Positions 49,572 to 58,186 of a stretch of 64,000 nucleotides of DNA are shown piece after piece (within the stretch, counting starts at the first letter, position 1; the number at the start of each line of letters is the position of its first letter). The DNA lies in contig NC_015172.1 of assembly GCF_000190635.1 (NCBI RefSeq), positions 2,046,001-2,110,000 on the forward strand, read 5' to 3'. Source of the stretch: Syntrophobotulus glycolicus DSM 8271 (lineage in GTDB: Bacteria; Bacillota; Desulfitobacteriia; Desulfitobacteriales; Syntrophobotulaceae). Position numbers and translations under genes: made by a program. The notes below the pieces were generated by a model. It did not search any database. It was not told the origin of the DNA and saw nothing but the letters and a program-made list of their open reading frames with translations.

Positions 49572-50345
49572 ATGAGAGTTATTGTTCTCAAACGGAAGCC
49601 CTTGATGATCATGGCTGTCATTGTTACCTTGAGTTCATTTTCATTTTTCTTAAAGCAGGAAGCGATTGTCTCGGTCTTATCCAAAAACCTTAAGCCGATT
49701 TACTCCACGAAAACCGCCACCAATAAAATTGCCCTCACTTTTGATATCAGCTGGGGGCGTACCAATGTGGTACCCATTCTGGACATCCTGGCGAAGGAAG
49801 ATGTTAAAGCAACTTTTTTTCTTTCTTCTCCCTGGTCGTCGGACAATCAGGACCTTGTGGAAAAGATCATTGCTTCCGGCAATGAGGTGGGCTCGCACGG
49901 CAGAAAGCATGTCGATATGAATAAACTCAGTGCCAATGATCTGGAGACAGAGTTAACCGCAGCCCAGGAAACTTTGGAAAAGCTCACCAATAAAAAAATC
50001 ACCGTATTTCGTCCTCCCAACGGAGCCTACGACAACAAGGTGATTCAGACTGCTTCCGCTCACGGCCAGCGCGTCATTCAGTGGAGTATAGATTCCCTGG
50101 ATTGGAAAAGGCCCGGTAAGGAAGCCGTGATCAAAAATGTTTTAGAAGGCCGTAAAAGCAATGACGGGGCCAAACCCGGCGATATTATTTTGTTCCACGC
50201 CTCTGATTCTGCTCCGGATACGCCCGGCGCCCTTCCTGAAATCATTACGGCTTTAAAACACAAAGGGTACGAACTGGTCACGGTCAGCGACCTTCTGGCC
50301 AATTCCAGCGAAACCTGGCCTCCGGAATCACAGCTTCCTGAATAA
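49572..50345 (+). CDS. PdaB-like polysaccharide deacetylase
   Basis: A 257-residue protein with an N-terminal membrane anchor (about 10-28) and a NodB (CE4) domain. The first motif is TFDISWG (Asp58), where most CE4 enzymes have TFDDG; this substitution is typical of sporulation PdaB. The metal histidines are His109 and His113 in SHGRKHVDM, and RPPNGAYD (147-154) is the third motif. PdaB acts in spore cortex maintenance in Bacillus. GGAGGGG precedes the start. Assignment to PdaB rests on the DIS motif and size. Confidence 0.85.
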   Translation: MRVIVLKRKPLMIMAVIVTLSSFSFFLKQEAIVSVLSKNLKPIYSTKTATNKIALTFDISWGRTNVVPILDILAKEDVKATFFLSSPWSSDNQDLVEKIIASGNEVGSHGRKHVDMNKLSANDLETELTAAQETLEKLTNKKITVFRPPNGAYDNKVIQTASAHGQRVIQWSIDSLDWKRPGKEAVIKNVLEGRKSNDGAKPGDIILFHASDSAPDTPGALPEIITALKHKGYELVTVSDLLANSSETWPPESQLPE

Positions 50346-50355
50346 GTCCTGCAAA

Positions 50356-51213
50356 TCAGTGGCCTTTCCAAGCGGAAAACCCCTCGCCGACAACCTCGGC
50401 AACCTCTCCGATCGCGACAAAGGCTTGGGGATCATGTTGATGAATAATATCCTTCAGCTGGGACAGCTGGGTTCGGTTCACAATGCTGTATACAACTTTT
50501 TTGTCCTGCTTGGAATACGCTCCTTCAGCCTGAAAGTACGTCACGCCTCTTTCCAAATTCAGAATAATATCTTCCGCAATCTGCTCAGGTTTGTCTGTAA
50601 TCACCATAACACTTTTGGAATAATCCAGCCCCACCTGCACCAAATCAATGACCCTGGCCGCAGTATAGGCATAGATCATGGCAAACATCCCCATCTCAGG
50701 CTCAAAAATTATTGCTGCACAAAGGAGAATCAGCGCGTCCATCCCTAAGAGAATCTGACCCACACTGAATGAGATCCTTTTCGTCAGGATCAGAGCCAGA
50801 ATATCGGTGCCGCCTAAAGACCCGTGAAACCTGAAGATGATGCCCATTCCGATCCCGGTGACCAGCCCGCCGAAAATCGAGGCTAATAATTGATTATCCG
50901 TAACCGCCGGGAGCTGGCTGGTGAACTTTAACGATACGGAGAGCGCGGTTACTCCCAATATGCTGTTCAAGAGCATTCTTCTGCCGATAATCTTATAACC
51001 CAGCATAAACAGGGGAATATTGATGATAAAGATGGCTAATCCCGTGTCCCAGCGGAACAAGTAATGAAGGATAATGGCAATGCCTGTTATGCCCCCGTCG
51101 GCGATCTTATTGGAAATAATAAAGATGTTAATACTGGTTGCCACAATGACGGCCCCGATCAAAATACCGAGACTTTGTTTGAATACTTTCCAAACTTTTA
51201 ACAATATCGTCAT
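50356..51213 (-). CDS. YitT/DUF2179-family membrane protein
   Basis: A 285-residue protein with five or six N-terminal helices followed by a cytoplasmic DUF2179 domain of about 100 residues. GGLVTGIGMGIIFRFHGSLGGTDI is the family signature and RGVTYFQAEGAYSKQDKKV marks the C-terminal domain. Family members are widespread in Firmicutes with no firm function. Its 3' end faces the pdaB-like gene across 10 nt. Confidence 0.88.
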   Translation of the reverse strand: MTILLKVWKVFKQSLGILIGAVIVATSINIFIISNKIADGGITGIAIILHYLFRWDTGLAIFIINIPLFMLGYKIIGRRMLLNSILGVTALSVSLKFTSQLPAVTDNQLLASIFGGLVTGIGMGIIFRFHGSLGGTDILALILTKRISFSVGQILLGMDALILLCAAIIFEPEMGMFAMIYAYTAARVIDLVQVGLDYSKSVMVITDKPEQIAEDIILNLERGVTYFQAEGAYSKQDKKVVYSIVNRTQLSQLKDIIHQHDPQAFVAIGEVAEVVGEGFSAWKGH

Positions 51214-51241
51214 TTTAATGATCTCCCTGCTATGATTTACC

Positions 51242-51270
51242 TTGACAAAAAAACCGGTTTCTAGTACATT
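51242..51270 (+). promoter_or_regulatory. Promoter of tRNA-Arg
   Basis: TTGACA at 51242-51247 and TACATT at 51265-51270 with a 17-nt spacer, ending 17 nt before the tRNA. Confidence 0.85.
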
Positions 51271-51287
51271 AATCTAGCAGTTTAAAT

Positions 51288-51363
51288 GCGCTCGTAGCTC
51301 AGGGGATAGAGTGACGGTTTCCGAGGCCGGAGGTCGCAGGTTCAAATCCTGCCGGGCGCACCA
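51288..51363 (+). tRNA. tRNA-Arg (anticodon CCG)
   Basis: The acceptor GCGCTCG pairs with CGGGCGC (one G-U pair). The anticodon loop TTCCGAG carries CCG, and the T arm GCAGG-TTCAAAT-CCTGC is intact. The 3' CCA is encoded at 51361-51363. The first anticodon-stem pair is an A-G mismatch, unusual but tolerable. Confidence 0.93.
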
Positions 51364-51375
51364 TTCTAGATATCG

Positions 51376-51405
51376 ATACCGCAAGGGATTGCGGTATTTT
51401 TTTTT
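51376..51405 (+). terminator. Terminator of tRNA-Arg
   Basis: ATACCGCAA (51376-51384) pairs with TTGCGGTAT (51389-51397) and is followed by a long T-run. Confidence 0.93.
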
Positions 51406-52213
51406 ACTCACTTCATTATACTATGCACCGACAGAATACCGGCACTCACCCGTGAATTTGATTTTCTCAACTAAAAGGGAAACGTATAACAGACCATTTA
51501 AAGTATACCATTGATTACTGTTTACTTAAATTTTATCCAGTTTAATTCCTTTTTAACAGCATCATTAACTTAAAAAAGCTAAAGCCATCTTTTGATCATT
51601 CCTTACGAAGAGACTTTTTGATTATGTATGATGATTGATCGTCATGATAAATGGTTTGTTTTTTAAAAATCAAATGTAAATTACCCAGGAGTATTATTGT
51701 ATTTCTACTTCATGTTCTTCAATTTTAATTTAGATAACGGATTTTGTAAGTATTCTTGCCAATAATCATCCCCAACTATCCAGAAATTTGGATTATTTCA
51801 TATGCAGATAAACAGGATTTGCCGATCAGTCTTTGAGAATACCCTGCCTTATCGTTAGGGCTGATACATTTTCCGCAGCAAAGTGTGCAAAAATTGAAGT
51901 AATGTTTAAGTATATGGAAATATATTCTAAATAACCGCGCAATAATTAAAAATTTGCACAGATTTAGCCGGAAAACTGGTTTTTAATCTGGGATATTTGC
52001 ACAATACTTGAAATTTTGCACACCTCACAGTATGATTCTTAGATGAAAGAGTATTTTAGTTATTTTTCAGCTGCCGCCTTTTGGAATATCCCATATATTG
52101 AAGCCGTGCTCGGTTCTGAAATCGCCGGAACAGACTCGGTCGATTTTACATTAGAAACTTCGGGTAAACGAGGATACACTAAATAAGAGGACAAAAACTG
52201 TGAGGATCAAAAA
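51406..52213. other. Gene-poor stretch after tRNA-Arg
   Basis: AT-rich region with many stops in all frames. It contains three direct copies of TTTGCACA (51952, 51995 and 52014) and one inverted copy (51884-51891). A 47-codon frame at 52043-52186 (MKEYFSYFSAAAFWNIPYI...) lacks a ribosome site and is probably a relic. No other gene is supported. Confidence 0.5.
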
Positions 52214-52315
52214 TTAGGTCCAGCCTTTAATAAAAAAGGTGATAATTCCGGTCGCACCAAGAGCAAGCCAACCCATGCCTTTATAAAACCGTACCATCTG
52301 CAAAATATTTTTCAT
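52214..52315 (-). CDS. Possible 33-residue membrane peptide
   Basis: The frame starts MKNILQMVRFYKGMGW and ends FFIKGWT, with one helix (GWLALGATGIITFFIK) and basic flanks. A stop lies two codons upstream of the ATG. No ribosome site is visible, which lowers confidence. It is divergent to the sigma factor gene. Confidence 0.35.
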   Translation of the reverse strand: MKNILQMVRFYKGMGWLALGATGIITFFIKGWT

Positions 52316-52366
52316 ATTGTGTCACACACACATGGAAATGTTGTCTAATTATACGGAGGAACAAAA

Positions 52367-53209
52367 ATGGGGAAAAATGAAATTGACAATTTAATTGAGC
52401 ATGCCATTTCCGGTGACAAAAAAGATCTCGAAGAACTTTTACTTAGTGTTCAGGATATTGTGTTTAATTTATCCCTCCGGATGTTGGGAACCTTAACCGA
52501 TGCCGAGGACGCGACGCAAGATATTCTTGTTCATATTATGACAAATTTATCATCTTTCCGAAGAGAAAGTACATTTCAAACCTGGGTTTACCGCTTATCT
52601 GTCAACTATTTAATTAACTACAAAAAGTCGATGTTTTCTCAATATCCAATGGATTTTGAATTCTACGGTAATGATATAAGATTTGCTAAAACAGATGAAG
52701 TCGAGGCTTTGACCGAAGAAATGAGCAGGGAGTTGCTGTCTGACGAATTAAAAATGTCTTGTACAAATGTGATGCTTCAATGCTTGGATTCGGAAAGCCG
52801 CTGTATTTTTATCATGGGAACAATGTTTAAAATTGACAGTCGTATTGCTGGCGAGGTATTGCATATAACTCCTGAAAATTATAGGCAACGGCTTTCAAGG
52901 ACCAGAAAAAAGGTTGCGGGGTTTTTAGCATATCACTGTGGCTTAACAGAAACCGGATTTTGCCTATGTCAAAATCGAATAAACTATGCTATTTCACAGG
53001 GGCGTGTCAATCCTAAAAAATTAGAATATACACAGCTTCGTCCGTTGGATAAGTCCGTTCTCTTTCAGTGTAAAGAGGAAATGGAGCATTTGGACGCGCT
53101 GGCTTGCTCTTTTGAAAAGCTGCCTTGTTACCAATCCACTGTTACCGCTTATGCGATAATCGAAAAGTTGTTCCACTCAAAACATCTAAAGAAAATACAG
53201 GAATTTTAG
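52367..53209 (+). CDS. ECF-like sigma factor with C-terminal extension
   Basis: A 280-residue protein. Residues 1-180 are ECF-like: region 2 LRMLGTLTDAEDATQDIL, and region 4 near RIAGEVLHITPENYRQRLSRTRKK. About 100 extra residues follow and include CGLTETGFCLC. GGAGG precedes the ATG. It heads a plus-strand group through 55627. The last gene of that group encodes a one-helix membrane protein that could act as its regulator (inference). Confidence 0.82.
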   Translation: MGKNEIDNLIEHAISGDKKDLEELLLSVQDIVFNLSLRMLGTLTDAEDATQDILVHIMTNLSSFRRESTFQTWVYRLSVNYLINYKKSMFSQYPMDFEFYGNDIRFAKTDEVEALTEEMSRELLSDELKMSCTNVMLQCLDSESRCIFIMGTMFKIDSRIAGEVLHITPENYRQRLSRTRKKVAGFLAYHCGLTETGFCLCQNRINYAISQGRVNPKKLEYTQLRPLDKSVLFQCKEEMEHLDALACSFEKLPCYQSTVTAYAIIEKLFHSKHLKKIQEF

Positions 53210-53220
53210 GAGGATAATTT

Positions 53221-53901
53221 ATGGCGAGCTCCATACTTACATATTTGGCGGCATTGGAATCCAATAATAACCGTGAATGGTATCAGGCTCATAAGGCTGA
53301 TTTTCAACAGGCTAATAGTGAATTTGAAGGTTTAATTCAATCGCTCATTTTTGAATTGGGAAAAAACGAACCAAACATACTGATGCACGAACCCAAAGAC
53401 CTGACGTTTAGATTGGTTAGGGATACCCGTTATAGCCACGACAAATCGCCCTATAATCCAACATTCCGTTGTCATATTTCTTCTGCCGGAAAATTGCCTA
53501 TACCTGTTGGCTACTATCTCTCTATCCGGCCCGGTAATCGTTCTTTCTTTGGTGGCGGGCTCTTTGCCGATATGTTCAAAGAAGCCACCAATATGATTAG
53601 AATGCACATAAATACTCATGCCGAAGAATTTAAACAAATTATTACAGAACCCGCTTTTCAGCAGAACTTTGAAGTGCGAGGTGAATCATTGCACAATGTA
53701 CCCAAAGAGTTTTGCAAAGATCATCCGCTGGCTGACTTTTTGAAATTCAAAAGTTGGTATATCGAATATTCCGTCAGTGATGATTCGATTGACCATTCGC
53801 AAAACTTTATTTCAATGGCCGTCGAGAAGTACCTGCTTATGAAGCCATTTAATGATTTTCTCAACGATGCACTACACGGCTTTACAATGCCGCAAAGATA
53901 A
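53221..53901 (+). CDS. DUF2461 family protein
   Basis: A 226-residue protein with the family signatures NNREWYQAHKADF near the N-terminus, FRLVRDTRYSHDKSPYNP, and GGGLFADM in the centre. The family is widespread and uncharacterised. It lies 11 nt after the sigma factor with AGGAGG upstream, so it is in the same transcript. Confidence 0.9.
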   Translation: MASSILTYLAALESNNNREWYQAHKADFQQANSEFEGLIQSLIFELGKNEPNILMHEPKDLTFRLVRDTRYSHDKSPYNPTFRCHISSAGKLPIPVGYYLSIRPGNRSFFGGGLFADMFKEATNMIRMHINTHAEEFKQIITEPAFQQNFEVRGESLHNVPKEFCKDHPLADFLKFKSWYIEYSVSDDSIDHSQNFISMAVEKYLLMKPFNDFLNDALHGFTMPQR

Positions 53902-53915
53902 AGGGAGAAACAAAA

Positions 53916-54143
53916 ATGGCTTCAAGCGAGGATTTTGCAAAATATGTTGCAGAGCAACTTAGTGATGCCTGGACAATTACCTAAAAGAAAATGCCTGGGG
54001 AATATGGACTTTACTGCAACGAAAAGTTTTTTGCTTGTGTCTCTGACAATCAACTTTTTGTCAAAATTACTGATAGAGGGCGAGAAGTATTGCGAACGGT
54101 TGAAAAAATTGGTGCCGTACAACACATAGATTGGAATAATGTT
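53916..54143 (+). pseudogene. TfoX N-terminal domain fragment with in-frame stop
   Basis: The frame starts MASSEDFAKYVAEQLSD, matching the start of TfoX-like N-terminal domains, with AAGGGAG upstream. A TAA at 53982-53984 interrupts it where relatives read IT-Y/x-KM. The same frame then resumes as KKMPGEYGLYCNEKFFACV and KITDRGREVLRT before running into the M23 peptidase gene without a stop. The domain is truncated at its C-terminus. Confidence 0.75.
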
Positions 54144-54992
54144 ATGTGGAAATTACTTAAAAAGTCATCTAAATTGCAATGGCTTGGCCTTATCGGAATA
54201 GTGGGCAGCGTTTTTGAAATAACCAGTCTAACCTGGTTTTACCTGTTCTGGCTATTTGCGTGGATAGACATTTTTTCGCCAGTTCGGAGCGTGACAAACA
54301 GCCTGTTGTTTTTACTGCAAAATCTGGCTATGCTGTTGAGTATTCCTCTTACTCCATTGTTGCATGGCTTTAGATTGCCAAGTAAAGAAAGCTACGTCCC
54401 CCAATGCCAATATTCCCTGCCCTTTGAGGGAAAATGGCACGTTGTAAACGGTGGCGTTGATAAGAAAACTTCCCATTCATGGTATATGTATTCTCAACGA
54501 TACGCTTACGATTTCTTTATTGTTGATGAAAAAGATAAATCGCATAGCGGAAGCAGAGACATTTTGAGCGACTACTACTGCTACAAGAAAACTGTTCTCG
54601 CACCCGCTGACGGCATTGTTGTCGCCGTAAAAGGCAAGTATTACGATACGCCAATTGTCGAAGTCGGACAGGCTGATTGCGCGGCTCCAGACGTTAGAGG
54701 CAATCATATCATTATCCGTCACAGCGAAAACGAATATAGTATGATTGCCCACTTATTAAAGGACAGCATTTGCGTGAAGCATGGCGATAAAGTTAGCAGA
54801 GGGCAAAAAATCGCTTTATGCGGGAACAGCGGGAACACAAGCGAACCTCACATACATTTTCAAATTCAGTCAGGAAAGAGTTTTCTCTTTTCTGCGGGGC
54901 TACCAATATCTTTTACAGCTATCATGATTGACGGCATGATGAAGATGAAATCTTGTTTTATTACCAATGGAACAACTGTTCAGAATATATAG
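54144..54992 (+). CDS. M23-family metallopeptidase with N-terminal membrane helices
   Basis: A 282-residue protein if started at the ATG at 54144 (MWKLLKKSSKLQW). Two or three helices (about 12-70) precede the peptidase domain. The zinc motif HIHFQ occurs as SEPHIHFQIQ, with QRYAYDFF as the partner region and LAPADGIVVAV and GNHIIIRHS typical of LytM-like folds. No ribosome site precedes 54144, and the gene is continuous with the TfoX fragment. Its translation start is therefore uncertain. It probably acts on peptidoglycan. Confidence 0.72.
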   Translation: MWKLLKKSSKLQWLGLIGIVGSVFEITSLTWFYLFWLFAWIDIFSPVRSVTNSLLFLLQNLAMLLSIPLTPLLHGFRLPSKESYVPQCQYSLPFEGKWHVVNGGVDKKTSHSWYMYSQRYAYDFFIVDEKDKSHSGSRDILSDYYCYKKTVLAPADGIVVAVKGKYYDTPIVEVGQADCAAPDVRGNHIIIRHSENEYSMIAHLLKDSICVKHGDKVSRGQKIALCGNSGNTSEPHIHFQIQSGKSFLFSAGLPISFTAIMIDGMMKMKSCFITNGTTVQNI

Positions 54993-55027
54993 CCAACTTT
55001 GCTATATCTAAGACAGGAGGGAGTGGA

Positions 55028-55627
55028 ATGAACGCCAACCATATTCTCGACACATTGGAAATAATTGACGACAAATATATCATACAAGCAAAGGAGCATA
55101 ATGCTATGGATATCACTTCTACGAAAGGCACACAAAAGAGGGTTAGAAACTGGAGGCGCACCCTCGTTTTAGCTGCTGCCATTATCGCAGTCTTGGCGCT
55201 TTGCGGATTTGAGTCCTATCAATTCGGCTTGTTTGACCCGTGGTTCCAGAAGCCTTCCGCGAACCCGATAGAAACCGTCCAAAGTGCAATCGAAAATCAG
55301 ATAGACAAAGAGTACACATTAAGTGTGCAAATTGAAGAAATAAAGGTGGATGATGAAGAAACTATGCGCGTCGTTCAGATGTATTCAAGCAGTGAGTTGG
55401 CCGAGACAAGAGGCTGGACAGATGAATATTTAGCGGAGCATTTTATTGTCGTATGGGCGAAATACGCTGTCAAGTACGATCATACAAAGACTTTTTTGGA
55501 TGACGGTAATACAGAGCAGTATTTCTATTTGACGCAGGATGAAGATAGCGGAGACTGGACGATTGTAGACAATACCAGTCCAAATATTTCCAACGATATT
55601 CACCCCCATGATGTACCAGTTCAATGA
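55028..55627 (+). CDS. Single-helix membrane protein, possible sigma regulator
   Basis: A 199-residue protein. The cytoplasmic N-terminus (MNANHILDTLEIIDDKYI) is of a type often encoded beside ECF factors in Firmicutes (recalled). One helix lies near 47-66, and the rest is an acidic extracytoplasmic domain. GGAGG precedes the ATG at 55028. It is the last gene of the sigma-factor group, followed by a terminator. Confidence 0.65.
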   Translation: MNANHILDTLEIIDDKYIIQAKEHNAMDITSTKGTQKRVRNWRRTLVLAAAIIAVLALCGFESYQFGLFDPWFQKPSANPIETVQSAIENQIDKEYTLSVQIEEIKVDDEETMRVVQMYSSSELAETRGWTDEYLAEHFIVVWAKYAVKYDHTKTFLDDGNTEQYFYLTQDEDSGDWTIVDNTSPNISNDIHPHDVPVQ

Positions 55628-55690
55628 GATGTTTTCATAAAGAATGGTATAATTTATACGACAAACCCACAAGGCGGTATTATCAAAGCT

Positions 55691-55738
55691 GGAACAGCCG
55701 ACAGATGCTCAAGAAGAGTATCCGTCGGCTGTTCCTTT
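55691..55738 (+). terminator. Terminator of the sigma-factor gene group
   Basis: GGAACAGCCGAC (55691-55702) pairs perfectly with GTCGGCTGTTCC (55724-55735), with a short T-run after it. Confidence 0.8.
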
Positions 55739-55820
55739 CTCACAGAGATAATCTGGATAACTTGGAACGATTCTGAAAATGATGGATATGGAGAAAATTG
55801 CTCATTTTTCGCAGCAAAAA

Positions 55821-56351
55821 TCACTCGAACAAATTGCGCTGCTTTTGCAAATTGCGTTTTTTTCGGTATACTTGTAAAAAACCAAAAGTAATAAATAAAC
55901 CAAGAATTAGGCTTGTTATACCGAAAATAAGATTAGCGGTCGTTTGGGTTCCAATATTACCCAAGCCAGTGCATATACTTGTAATGCCGATACATCCAAC
56001 AAGTGTCAACACGCGGTTCAAAAGTTTGATACGAGATGCATTATCGGAATACAGGTTAAATTCACCGTTATCTGTTTTCCTTCTAAAATATACCCAGCGC
56101 ATAACAGATCCCAAATACTCAGCACCGCTTTCCTCAAGGAATTTTATATATTGTTGGCTTTCTGCGTTTGTGGGAACGTTATTCAAAAGCTCAAGACGAA
56201 CGTTATATTCACCTGGCAAGCACTCTTCAAAAGTATATCTGCAAAAGCCTATCGCCACAAGTACAAGACCCTTGGCTGCCATTTCATTGAGCCAAATTTC
56301 TTCTTTTTCAAAATCCCATGCCCAAAAGCATTTACTGATTGTTCTTCTCAT
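55821..56351 (-). CDS. DUF2812 domain membrane protein
   Basis: A 176-residue protein. The N-terminal DUF2812 domain (KCFWAWDFEKEEIWLNEMAAKGL) is followed by two helices near 112-160. DUF2812 proteins are commonly encoded next to PadR regulators, as here, where the genes overlap by 20 nt. It is probably controlled by that regulator. Function unknown. Confidence 0.85.
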   Translation of the reverse strand: MRRTISKCFWAWDFEKEEIWLNEMAAKGLVLVAIGFCRYTFEECLPGEYNVRLELLNNVPTNAESQQYIKFLEESGAEYLGSVMRWVYFRRKTDNGEFNLYSDNASRIKLLNRVLTLVGCIGITSICTGLGNIGTQTTANLIFGITSLILGLFITFGFLQVYRKKRNLQKQRNLFE

Positions 56352-56673
56352 AATCGCTTACCCCCAGTATTATCTTTCCATTTTTTAAAAGCTCTTCGAG
56401 TCTGCACATTTCTACTGCAACAATTTCTTTGCCCAAGGAAGTTATTTGATATTCTTTTTTTCTACTATCTTTTTCTCCGGGAATTGCAGTAATCCACCCC
56501 TTTTCAAGCATTGTACTGATTGCACCATATAACGTTCCTGCTGCAAGCCTTACTCTTCCGCTGGATAGTTGCTCGATATTTTGCATAATTCCATACCCAT
56601 GAAGTGGTGTTTGTATCGAAAGCAATATATAATATACCGCTTCGGTTAGTGCTCCATTTTGATTTGCTGACAT
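56332..56673 (-). CDS. PadR-family transcriptional regulator
   Basis: A 113-residue winged-helix regulator. The motifs AVYYILLSIQTPLHGYGI and GTLYGAISTMLEKGWI, with the wing KKEYQITSLGKEI, are typical of PadR. The ATG at 56673 has GGAGG 10 nt upstream, so the frame extending to 56796 is rejected. A near-consensus promoter and an inverted repeat lie just upstream, suggesting self-repression. It overlaps the DUF2812 gene. Confidence 0.92.
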   Translation of the reverse strand: MSANQNGALTEAVYYILLSIQTPLHGYGIMQNIEQLSSGRVRLAAGTLYGAISTMLEKGWITAIPGEKDSRKKEYQITSLGKEIVAVEMCRLEELLKNGKIILGVSDYEKNNQ

Positions 56674-56705
56674 ATTAGCTCGTCCTCCTTTATATCCTTC
56701 TACGT

Positions 56706-56756
56706 TATATCGTCTAACGGTATATTCATAATAACAGTTGACTCTATAATTGTCAA
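56706..56756 (-). promoter_or_regulatory. PadR promoter with overlapping operator-like palindrome
   Basis: On the minus strand TTGACA (56756-56751) and TATTAT (56733-56728) have a 17-nt spacer. At the expected start point, TATATCGT (56706-56713) and ACGGTATA (56717-56724) form an inverted repeat with one mismatch and a 3-nt centre, the usual form of a PadR operator. Confidence 0.7.
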
Positions 56757-56902
56757 GATATAAACAAAATTGCAGACATTCGATAAATGCCTGCAATTTG
56801 CAAAATATGAAATTTACTTATCCCACACTGGTGTAATAAAAACAGAATATCACTCTACATATCCAAGATACCACAATTCTTTATTCTGATAAAATAAGTG
56901 GT

Positions 56903-57180
56903 TTAGAGTTCTTTCAGCCACTCAGTAAACTCCTGCAAGCCGATCTCCCCGGCATCGCACATGGCTTTTCTTCTCTTGCTTTTTCGCTCCAAGCGTAGAA
57001 TTCCTCCTGCTCAATTTTCCCGGCCCTAATCCAGCCAAAGCGCTTCTTGTATTCCCGGCGGTAGACCTTGAAAATGAGTGGTATGGCAAAAATACCAGCA
57101 AGAAAATCCGTGCTGTGTAGCAGGCCAAAGGAAAAAGCGGCGAACACCTTGCCGCCCCGCCTTGATGGGTTTAGGGGCAT
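56903..57180 (-). pseudogene. Frameshifted remnant, mobile-element-like
   Basis: One frame reads FKVYRREYKKRFGWIRAGKI...YAWSEKAREEK, then loses the pattern. The next frame continues as AMCDAGEIGLQEFTEWLKEL to a stop at 56903. The join falls at GAAGAAAAG, consistent with loss of one A. The N-terminal end runs upstream in frame without a start. Short helices of this type are familiar to me from conjugative elements of Clostridia, but the family is not certain. Confidence 0.5.
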
Positions 57181-57315
57181 AAAAACTGAATATGTGGGCC
57201 CAGTGCCGTTACTATAACGCCGCCGCCCGCCATGAGTTTATGCTTCCCTTAGGACACTGTCCTAAGGGGCAGGGCGGAAAATTCAAAAATAATTCTAAAG
57301 GTACCAGGCACGGTT
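57181..57315. other. Relic region with a 23-bp palindrome
   Basis: CCCTTAGGACA (57246-57256) and TGTCCTAAGGG (57258-57268) form an almost perfect palindrome with one central base. A minus-strand reading of the flank gives KLMAGGGVIVTALG, which resembles the C-terminal part of Maff2-type membrane peptides of conjugative elements. This supports a decayed element. Confidence 0.4.
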
Positions 57316-57960
57316 TTATTTATTGATCAGGAGAGAATCAACTTTCTTGCTTATCCTATCGGCGATATTCTCAACCGTATCCTCTCCATCCAGCTCTAAA
57401 ATATTTTCCCCCTGGCTGCCCCAGGCCTCCTTGATTTTGATGTAGTTGGCCATCACTTCCTTTAAGATCACTTCTTGCTCAAATACATCGATTTGAAACC
57501 TGTTCTGCCTGATTCGCTCCATCGATACCTGAGGTCTGACCTTGACAAAAATCGTCAGATCAGGTTTGAGCGCATATTTATTCGTTTCCAGTATCCACTG
57601 TTCATCGATTTTTATCCCCTGATAAGCAAAGGAAGACCAGACATATCTGTCGCAAATGACAAGAGCCCCCTGCTCAAGGGCAGGAATAATTTTATGCTGG
57701 AGATGATCCATCCGGTCGGCCGCGAACATCAGGGTCAGGCTTTCCTCCCGAATTCCCTGCACCCGGTGGGTCAAAACCTGGCGGATCAGTGTCCCTATCG
57801 GCCCTTCACTCGGTTCTTTCGCTAATAGGACTTTTTTTCCATGCTTATTCTCTATATACCTTTTCAACAGAGCGGACTGGGTACTGATCCCTGAGCCGTC
57901 CGTACCTTCCAGAACGATAAATTTTCCCGAAAATTGCTGTGTTTGCATTGATTTCTTCAC
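57316..57960 (-). CDS. tmk: Thymidylate kinase with atypical P-loop
   Basis: A 214-residue dTMP kinase. The P-loop reads EGTDGSGISTQ, with Ile (codon ATC) where most enzymes have Lys. ICDRYVWSSFAYQG is the DRx substrate motif, and EPSEGPIGTLIRQVL is the early substrate loop of the variant subfamily in which the Lys is often replaced by Thr. The LID region is RIRQNRFQIDVFEQE. It is monocistronic on the minus strand. Whether it is active cannot be told from sequence. Confidence 0.85.
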   Translation of the reverse strand: MKKSMQTQQFSGKFIVLEGTDGSGISTQSALLKRYIENKHGKKVLLAKEPSEGPIGTLIRQVLTHRVQGIREESLTLMFAADRMDHLQHKIIPALEQGALVICDRYVWSSFAYQGIKIDEQWILETNKYALKPDLTIFVKVRPQVSMERIRQNRFQIDVFEQEVILKEVMANYIKIKEAWGSQGENILELDGEDTVENIADRISKKVDSLLINK

Positions 57961-58186
57961 TCCTTCCTTTTATTTTATCACAAAATACCCGTATACAATT
58001 AGGAGGAAATCTACTTGTATACGGGTATTCTCTTGATGATTTAAACAGGATGACCTGTTCAAATAAACCATTTATTTTCAATCTTGATTTTTTCCGGATC
58101 AATTCAATCTCCTGAACTGGTGATTGATTTTTTTCTCATCCCGATTGATTAAATAAAATATTATTAATAAAAAGATTTCGTATCAT

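Follow-up and report, generated by a model that had tools for sequence, protein, structure and literature searches.

A probable tfoX remnant joined ahead of a conserved M23 peptidase gene in a genomic insert of Syntrophobotulus glycolicus

The locus described here is closest to the TfoX/Sxy family, to the M23 peptidases and to termination–reinitiation coupling. Canonical M23 peptidases carry the zinc motifs HxGxD and HxH. With regard to coupling, PMC10666635 considers stop-to-start distances between –8 and +10 nt to predict termination–reinitiation, describes a gap of ~20 nt as almost abolishing reinitiation, and reports that in three E. coli pairs a 2-nt gap lowered it by 5, 20 and 70%; the measurements were made in E. 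coli and Haloferax, outside the bacterial group considered here.

We analyzed 64,000 nucleotides of Syntrophobotulus glycolicus DSM 8271 (the window; genome positions 2046001–2110000), in which one reading frame, 53916–54992, bears a resemblance to each of these systems. Its first part (53916 to about 54092) resembles the TfoX/Sxy family in matching PF04993 positions 1–47 and in having a good ribosome site at its start, and differs in the absence of the second half of the domain, in one nonsense codon and in the change of three otherwise invariant positions. The remainder resembles a subgroup of M23 peptidases (PF01551) with a hydrophobic N-terminus, from which it has the SHSW...QRYAYD block and all of the invariant columns; however, the relatives are separate genes, whereas the window copy is without their ribosome site and has a TfoX-derived leader. 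The likeness to termination–reinitiation coupling is that a start codon lies 6 nt past a stop, within the range given in PMC10666635, but here the stop looks accidental rather than a conserved gene boundary, and no ribosome site is near the start. We regard the locus as probably a decayed tfoX remnant joined ahead of a complete and conserved M23 gene, by ordinary gene decay in a genomic island.

Composition of the frame

The features considered are listed below by position in the window.

51288–51363, + strand: tRNA-Arg (CCG), identified with ARAGORN; left edge of a lineage-specific stretch
51364–57315, edges approximate: low-G+C stretch of about 6.0 kb (39.3% G+C vs 44.6% in the rest of the window)
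53221–53901, + strand: intact DUF2461 gene, upstream neighbour on the same strand (Pfam PF09365, 194.6 bits)
53902–53915, + strand: tfoX ribosome-binding region (–8.6 kcal/mol with the anti-Shine-Dalgarno sequence)
53916–54110, + strand, right edge approximate (about 54092–54110): tfoX-like fragment, first half of TfoX_N, Pfam match up to residue 59
53982–53984, + strand: in-frame TAA, the sole break of the open frame on translation
53991–53993, + strand: first in-frame ATG past the stop, 6 nt downstream; a reinitiation product would have 333 aa
54090–54092, + strand: in-frame TTG whose ribosome site would be weak (–6.3 kcal/mol)
54144–54992, + strand: M23-type peptidase, 282 aa, homologous from ATG 54144 on to separate genes of relatives

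Translation of 53916–54992 gave 22 residues, the TAA at 53982–53984, and then an open frame until the stop codon at 54990–54992, and two Pfam families were found in this one frame, a fragment of TfoX_N followed by Peptidase_M23. The TfoX_N match (PF04993) scored 40.2 bits against a cut-off of 30.1 over residues 13–59 of the 75-aa leader, in which the stop was written as X. It covered profile positions 1–47 of 91, and a complete domain in one open frame was not found there, the TAA lying inside it; the part of the leader after the stop, taken alone, scored 25.4 bits for TfoX_N, below the cut-off. In the remainder of the frame, Peptidase_M23 scored 59 bits (cut-off 28.7). The initial annotation had described a TfoX-like N-terminal domain interrupted by the TAA at 53982 and deprived of its C-terminal part, whose frame then runs without a stop into the peptidase; translation and Pfam agree with it on the interruption, on the absence of the second half of the domain and on the open frame through 54990–54992. 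The word membrane, applied there to the peptidase, reflects an apparently hydrophobic N-terminus.

We compared both parts with their relatives at invariant alignment columns. Among 13 complete TfoX sequences, which are few, related and drawn from two subfamilies, 14 columns were invariant over residues 1–59, not counting one further column that falls in the doubtful tail, and the fragment keeps 11 of them (changed at positions 19, 27 and 43). When each relative was left out in turn, with the fragment excluded, 12 of the 13 lost no column and one lost 1. For the peptidase, we aligned 17 homologues (6 from the order, 10 phylum loci and 1 Thermus plasmid protein), omitting seven weaker phylum matches without a locus and one order match that runs off its contig (G052). 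The window protein keeps 33 of the 33 invariant columns of this likewise small and related set, in which 9 of the 17 homologues lose none on leave-one-out and the others lose 1 to 6. By this comparison only the tfoX part shows decay and the peptidase is conserved; the tfoX part, given its nonsense codon, missing half and changed invariant positions, has probably lost its function.

Of the two zinc motifs, the peptidase has HxH, and no HxGxD was found, the profile match beginning at position 13. All 18 aligned members keep HxH; in place of HxGxD they have SHSW and then a QRYA.D-like block, whose D is found in 17 of the 18, whereas HxGxD was found in 9 of 10 ordinary M23 proteins checked. The zinc site of this subgroup may have a different architecture or may have degenerated.

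Relatives of the two parts and the junction

Searches with the leader (E <= 1e-10) matched 4 of 398 phylum genomes besides the window's own, at 50–61% identity. One of the four holds three separate TfoX copies, and the other three belong to one genus; the two of these that were read encode TfoX with another domain fused at its C-terminus, and a 337-aa open frame is present in the third. The TfoX query also matched 23 of 73 genomes of the order, own included (E <= 1e-3), and a named-relative search returned one match, a Candidatus Staskawiczbacteria MAG with 48% identity over residues 1–52. The M23 query matched 8 of 82 class genomes (E <= 1e-20) and 19 of the 398 drawn from the phylum (E <= 1e-25), own included in both; the seven best matches are 51–56% identical to the window peptidase, and the named-relative search with this query found no relative. 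Plasmid searches gave 120 M23 and 12 TfoX records, all with <60% identity.

At the loci searched, the two parts were not found together in the present order. Relatives with the two parts fused as here but with an amino-acid codon in place of the stop at 53982, which the initial annotation had named as the finding that would refute its reading, were looked for in 73 genomes of the order (TfoX query), 82 of the class (M23 query) and 398 of the phylum (both queries), and none was found; the phylum set is a sample, 11 of its 18 other M23-bearing genomes were opened, most loci were read for 1.5 kb per side, and the M23 start of the contig-edge match in the order runs off its contig. A TfoX search covered 16 of the 17 M23 loci in the alignment and detected no TfoX sharing the frame of M23; its matches were confined to four of these loci, each convergent to M23. 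The 17th, on the Thermus plasmid, has none among its 5 annotated features. At the limits used, no genome other than the window's own was in both phylum lists. In the relatives read, the comparison that the initial annotation had proposed gave TfoX and M23 as separate genes, with TfoX fused only to another domain, in one genus.

In four relatives (L058–L061), a TfoX of another subfamily is convergent to the M23 gene at about 0.2, 1.6, 1.7 and 2.5 kb, an arrangement that may count as one event, the four sharing one genus; in two further relatives (L062 and L063), no TfoX was found in 13–14 kb of sequence at the M23 locus. The window's genome itself has a second TfoX of the other subfamily (1159684–1159875, full length, 29.1 bits, just below the Pfam cut-off), which shares 45% identity with the fragment and 84–87% with the TfoX that lies near M23 in those four relatives. 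We considered the convergent layout as a direct ancestor of the present one and rejected it on the grounds of its orientation and subfamily.

The layout is probably explained by a rearrangement, most simply a deletion, that fused the first half of tfoX to sequence immediately preceding the start codon of the peptidase and in doing so removed the ribosome-binding site of the peptidase; the tfoX part would have decayed, and the peptidase is conserved. The initial annotation had proposed a deletion fusion followed by a nonsense mutation. Its junction, with the loss to tfoX of its 3' part and to the peptidase of its ribosome site, is well supported by the sequence comparisons. The event may have been a simple deletion between former tandem neighbours, and the stop may have arisen either after or before the junction. 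No relative with separate tfoX and M23 genes in tandem was found in these searches, and therefore the state before the junction is a reconstruction.

We also asked where the TfoX-derived sequence ends. One candidate was an eroded TfoX C-terminus in the stretch from residue 60 to ATG 54144, and BLAST extended across this tail with gaps in some pairs. The candidate was rejected, the tail aligning no better than its own shuffles: 1245 of 2000 shuffles scored as well with standard gap costs, 372 of 2000 did so with cheap gaps, and 362 of 2000 when scores were averaged across the 13 relatives. This sequence may derive from the former leader of the peptidase gene.

Start codons and translation of the peptidase

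We computed the interaction energies of candidate start regions with the anti-Shine-Dalgarno sequence and compared them with 3000 random positions, of which 0.7% reach –8.6 kcal/mol, 5% reach –5.8 and 21% reach –3.3. The values were –8.6 kcal/mol for the tfoX start, –6.3 for TTG 54090, –3.3 for ATG 54144 and –3.0 for ATG 53991. The best starts of the 32 long ORFs in the window had a median of –7.65 kcal/mol, and 31 of them were at –3.3 or better. In the M23 homologues, start-site energies ranged from –6.3 to –12.9 kcal/mol, values biased to the strong side because starts were picked by the best ribosome site. Of the 17, 10 have the start so picked aligned with ATG 54144 and 1 has it a single residue upstream of that position; the N-terminus of the other 6 is not comparable. 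Judged by these homologues, the peptidase proper probably begins at ATG 54144, which is without the ribosome site that they have. The same best-site rule, applied to the window after the stop, selects TTG 54090 and not ATG 54144; this site is weak evidence, however, because several candidate starts were tried. The statement of the initial annotation that the peptidase has no ribosome site of its own therefore holds for ATG 54144 and ATG 53991 and is to be qualified by the weak site at TTG 54090. RNA accessibility did not discriminate among the three starts examined (mean unpaired 0.54 for tfoX, 0.51 for 53991 and 0.46 for 54144, against 0.49 with an sd of 0.10 at 300 random positions).

Should the peptidase still be produced, ribosomes would most likely load at the tfoX start, stop at 53982 and resume at ATG 53991, six bases downstream, a spacing within the –8 to +10 nt range given in PMC10666635; the losses reported there for a 2-nt gap speak against this route. 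ATG 54144 lies 159 nt past the stop and would need independent initiation, and direct weak initiation at TTG 54090 or ATG 54144 would be the alternative. Reinitiation at 53991 would mean that an accidental stop had turned a chance fusion into a coupled unit, producing a peptidase with a 51-residue, mostly TfoX-derived N-terminus; we put this forward as a speculative and rather unlikely outcome. Were the peptidase made in any of these ways, the locus would be a natural test of how a gene without a ribosome site survives on the initiation signal of a decaying upstream gene, and of short-gap reinitiation in this bacterial group; failing that, it documents routine decay within a small genomic island.

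The peptidase could instead have been silenced recently by the loss of its ribosome site, so that both parts are dead and give no protein product. The lack of a ribosome site at 54144 and 53991 is consistent with this, as is the fact that the sole strong start of the frame leads into a nonsense codon, and conservation of the M23 residues would also fit a loss that happened very recently. However, the peptidase has retained 282 stop-free codons with every family-invariant column kept, and reinitiation at a 6-nt spacing or a start at the weak-site TTG is possible. We consider such silencing possible, if on the unlikely side.

A much less probable reading is that of a former working TfoX–M23 two-domain protein, in which the TAA is read through or bypassed and the long product is still made. 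It would account for the single frame that passes through both parts with no other stop, but an in-frame join is not rare by chance: by our own estimate, a chance of about 1/3 that the frame matches and of about half that some 13 additional codons are all sense codons gives roughly 1/6. Moreover, no fused homologue was found in the order, class and phylum sets at the limits used, invariant TfoX positions have been lost, and the base after the stop is A, an unfavourable context for readthrough. This explanation is thus very improbable.

The genome is a single contig of 3,406,739 bases. According to PMC3156405, it was finished from 167x Illumina and 48x 454 data (215x in total), with a stated error of <1 in 100,000 and 119 annotated pseudogenes. 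The sets searched held no other genome of the genus with which the codon could be compared, but a sequencing or assembly error is scarcely credible as the origin of the TAA, because a miscall at 53982 is unlikely in a finished genome with the coverage stated there and a single-base miscall would leave the absence of half the domain unexplained, to which three changed invariant positions are added.

The low-G+C insert beside tRNA-Arg

The probable remnant and the peptidase lie within the low-G+C stretch, whose G+C content is below that of every equal-size segment in the rest of the window (lowest 41.9% among 261 overlapping segments). We searched 8 of 24 family genomes, chosen by the analyst, for the genes that flank it, which from their sequences we take to be kinase-like and YitT-like. 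At the limits used, each was found in 7 of the 8, and both were on one contig in 6, with gaps between the matches of 263, 341, 398, 1031, 1044 and 1051 bp vs 6102 bp here. The 6-kb stretch, with tRNA-Arg on one side and the kinase-like gene on the other, is absent in these six family relatives. As in the window, tRNA-Arg (CCG) stands beside the YitT-like gene in all 7 relatives scanned.

Besides the tfoX fragment and the M23 gene, the stretch contains a sigma-factor-like gene, DUF2461, a DUF4829-like ORF (weak, below the cut-off), DUF2812 and a PadR regulator. No integrase was found among the part of its ORFs that was scanned, and no direct repeat of at least 14 nt was found at the far side of the insert in 50000–58000. 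A pattern search of the window for a second tRNA 3' end (att site), with 3 mismatches allowed, found the tRNA only; the pattern was a guess, 2 bases off the tRNA, with which a weak copy could be missed. Just past the downstream ORF, an inverted repeat was observed at 55691–55735 (20-nt arms, 90% complementary, with 5 nt between); it is absent from the terminator scan list and is perhaps a transcription terminator. The start region of the sigma-factor-like gene (52350–52370) and that of tfoX (53899–53919) have 18 of 21 bases in common around the ribosome site and the start codon.
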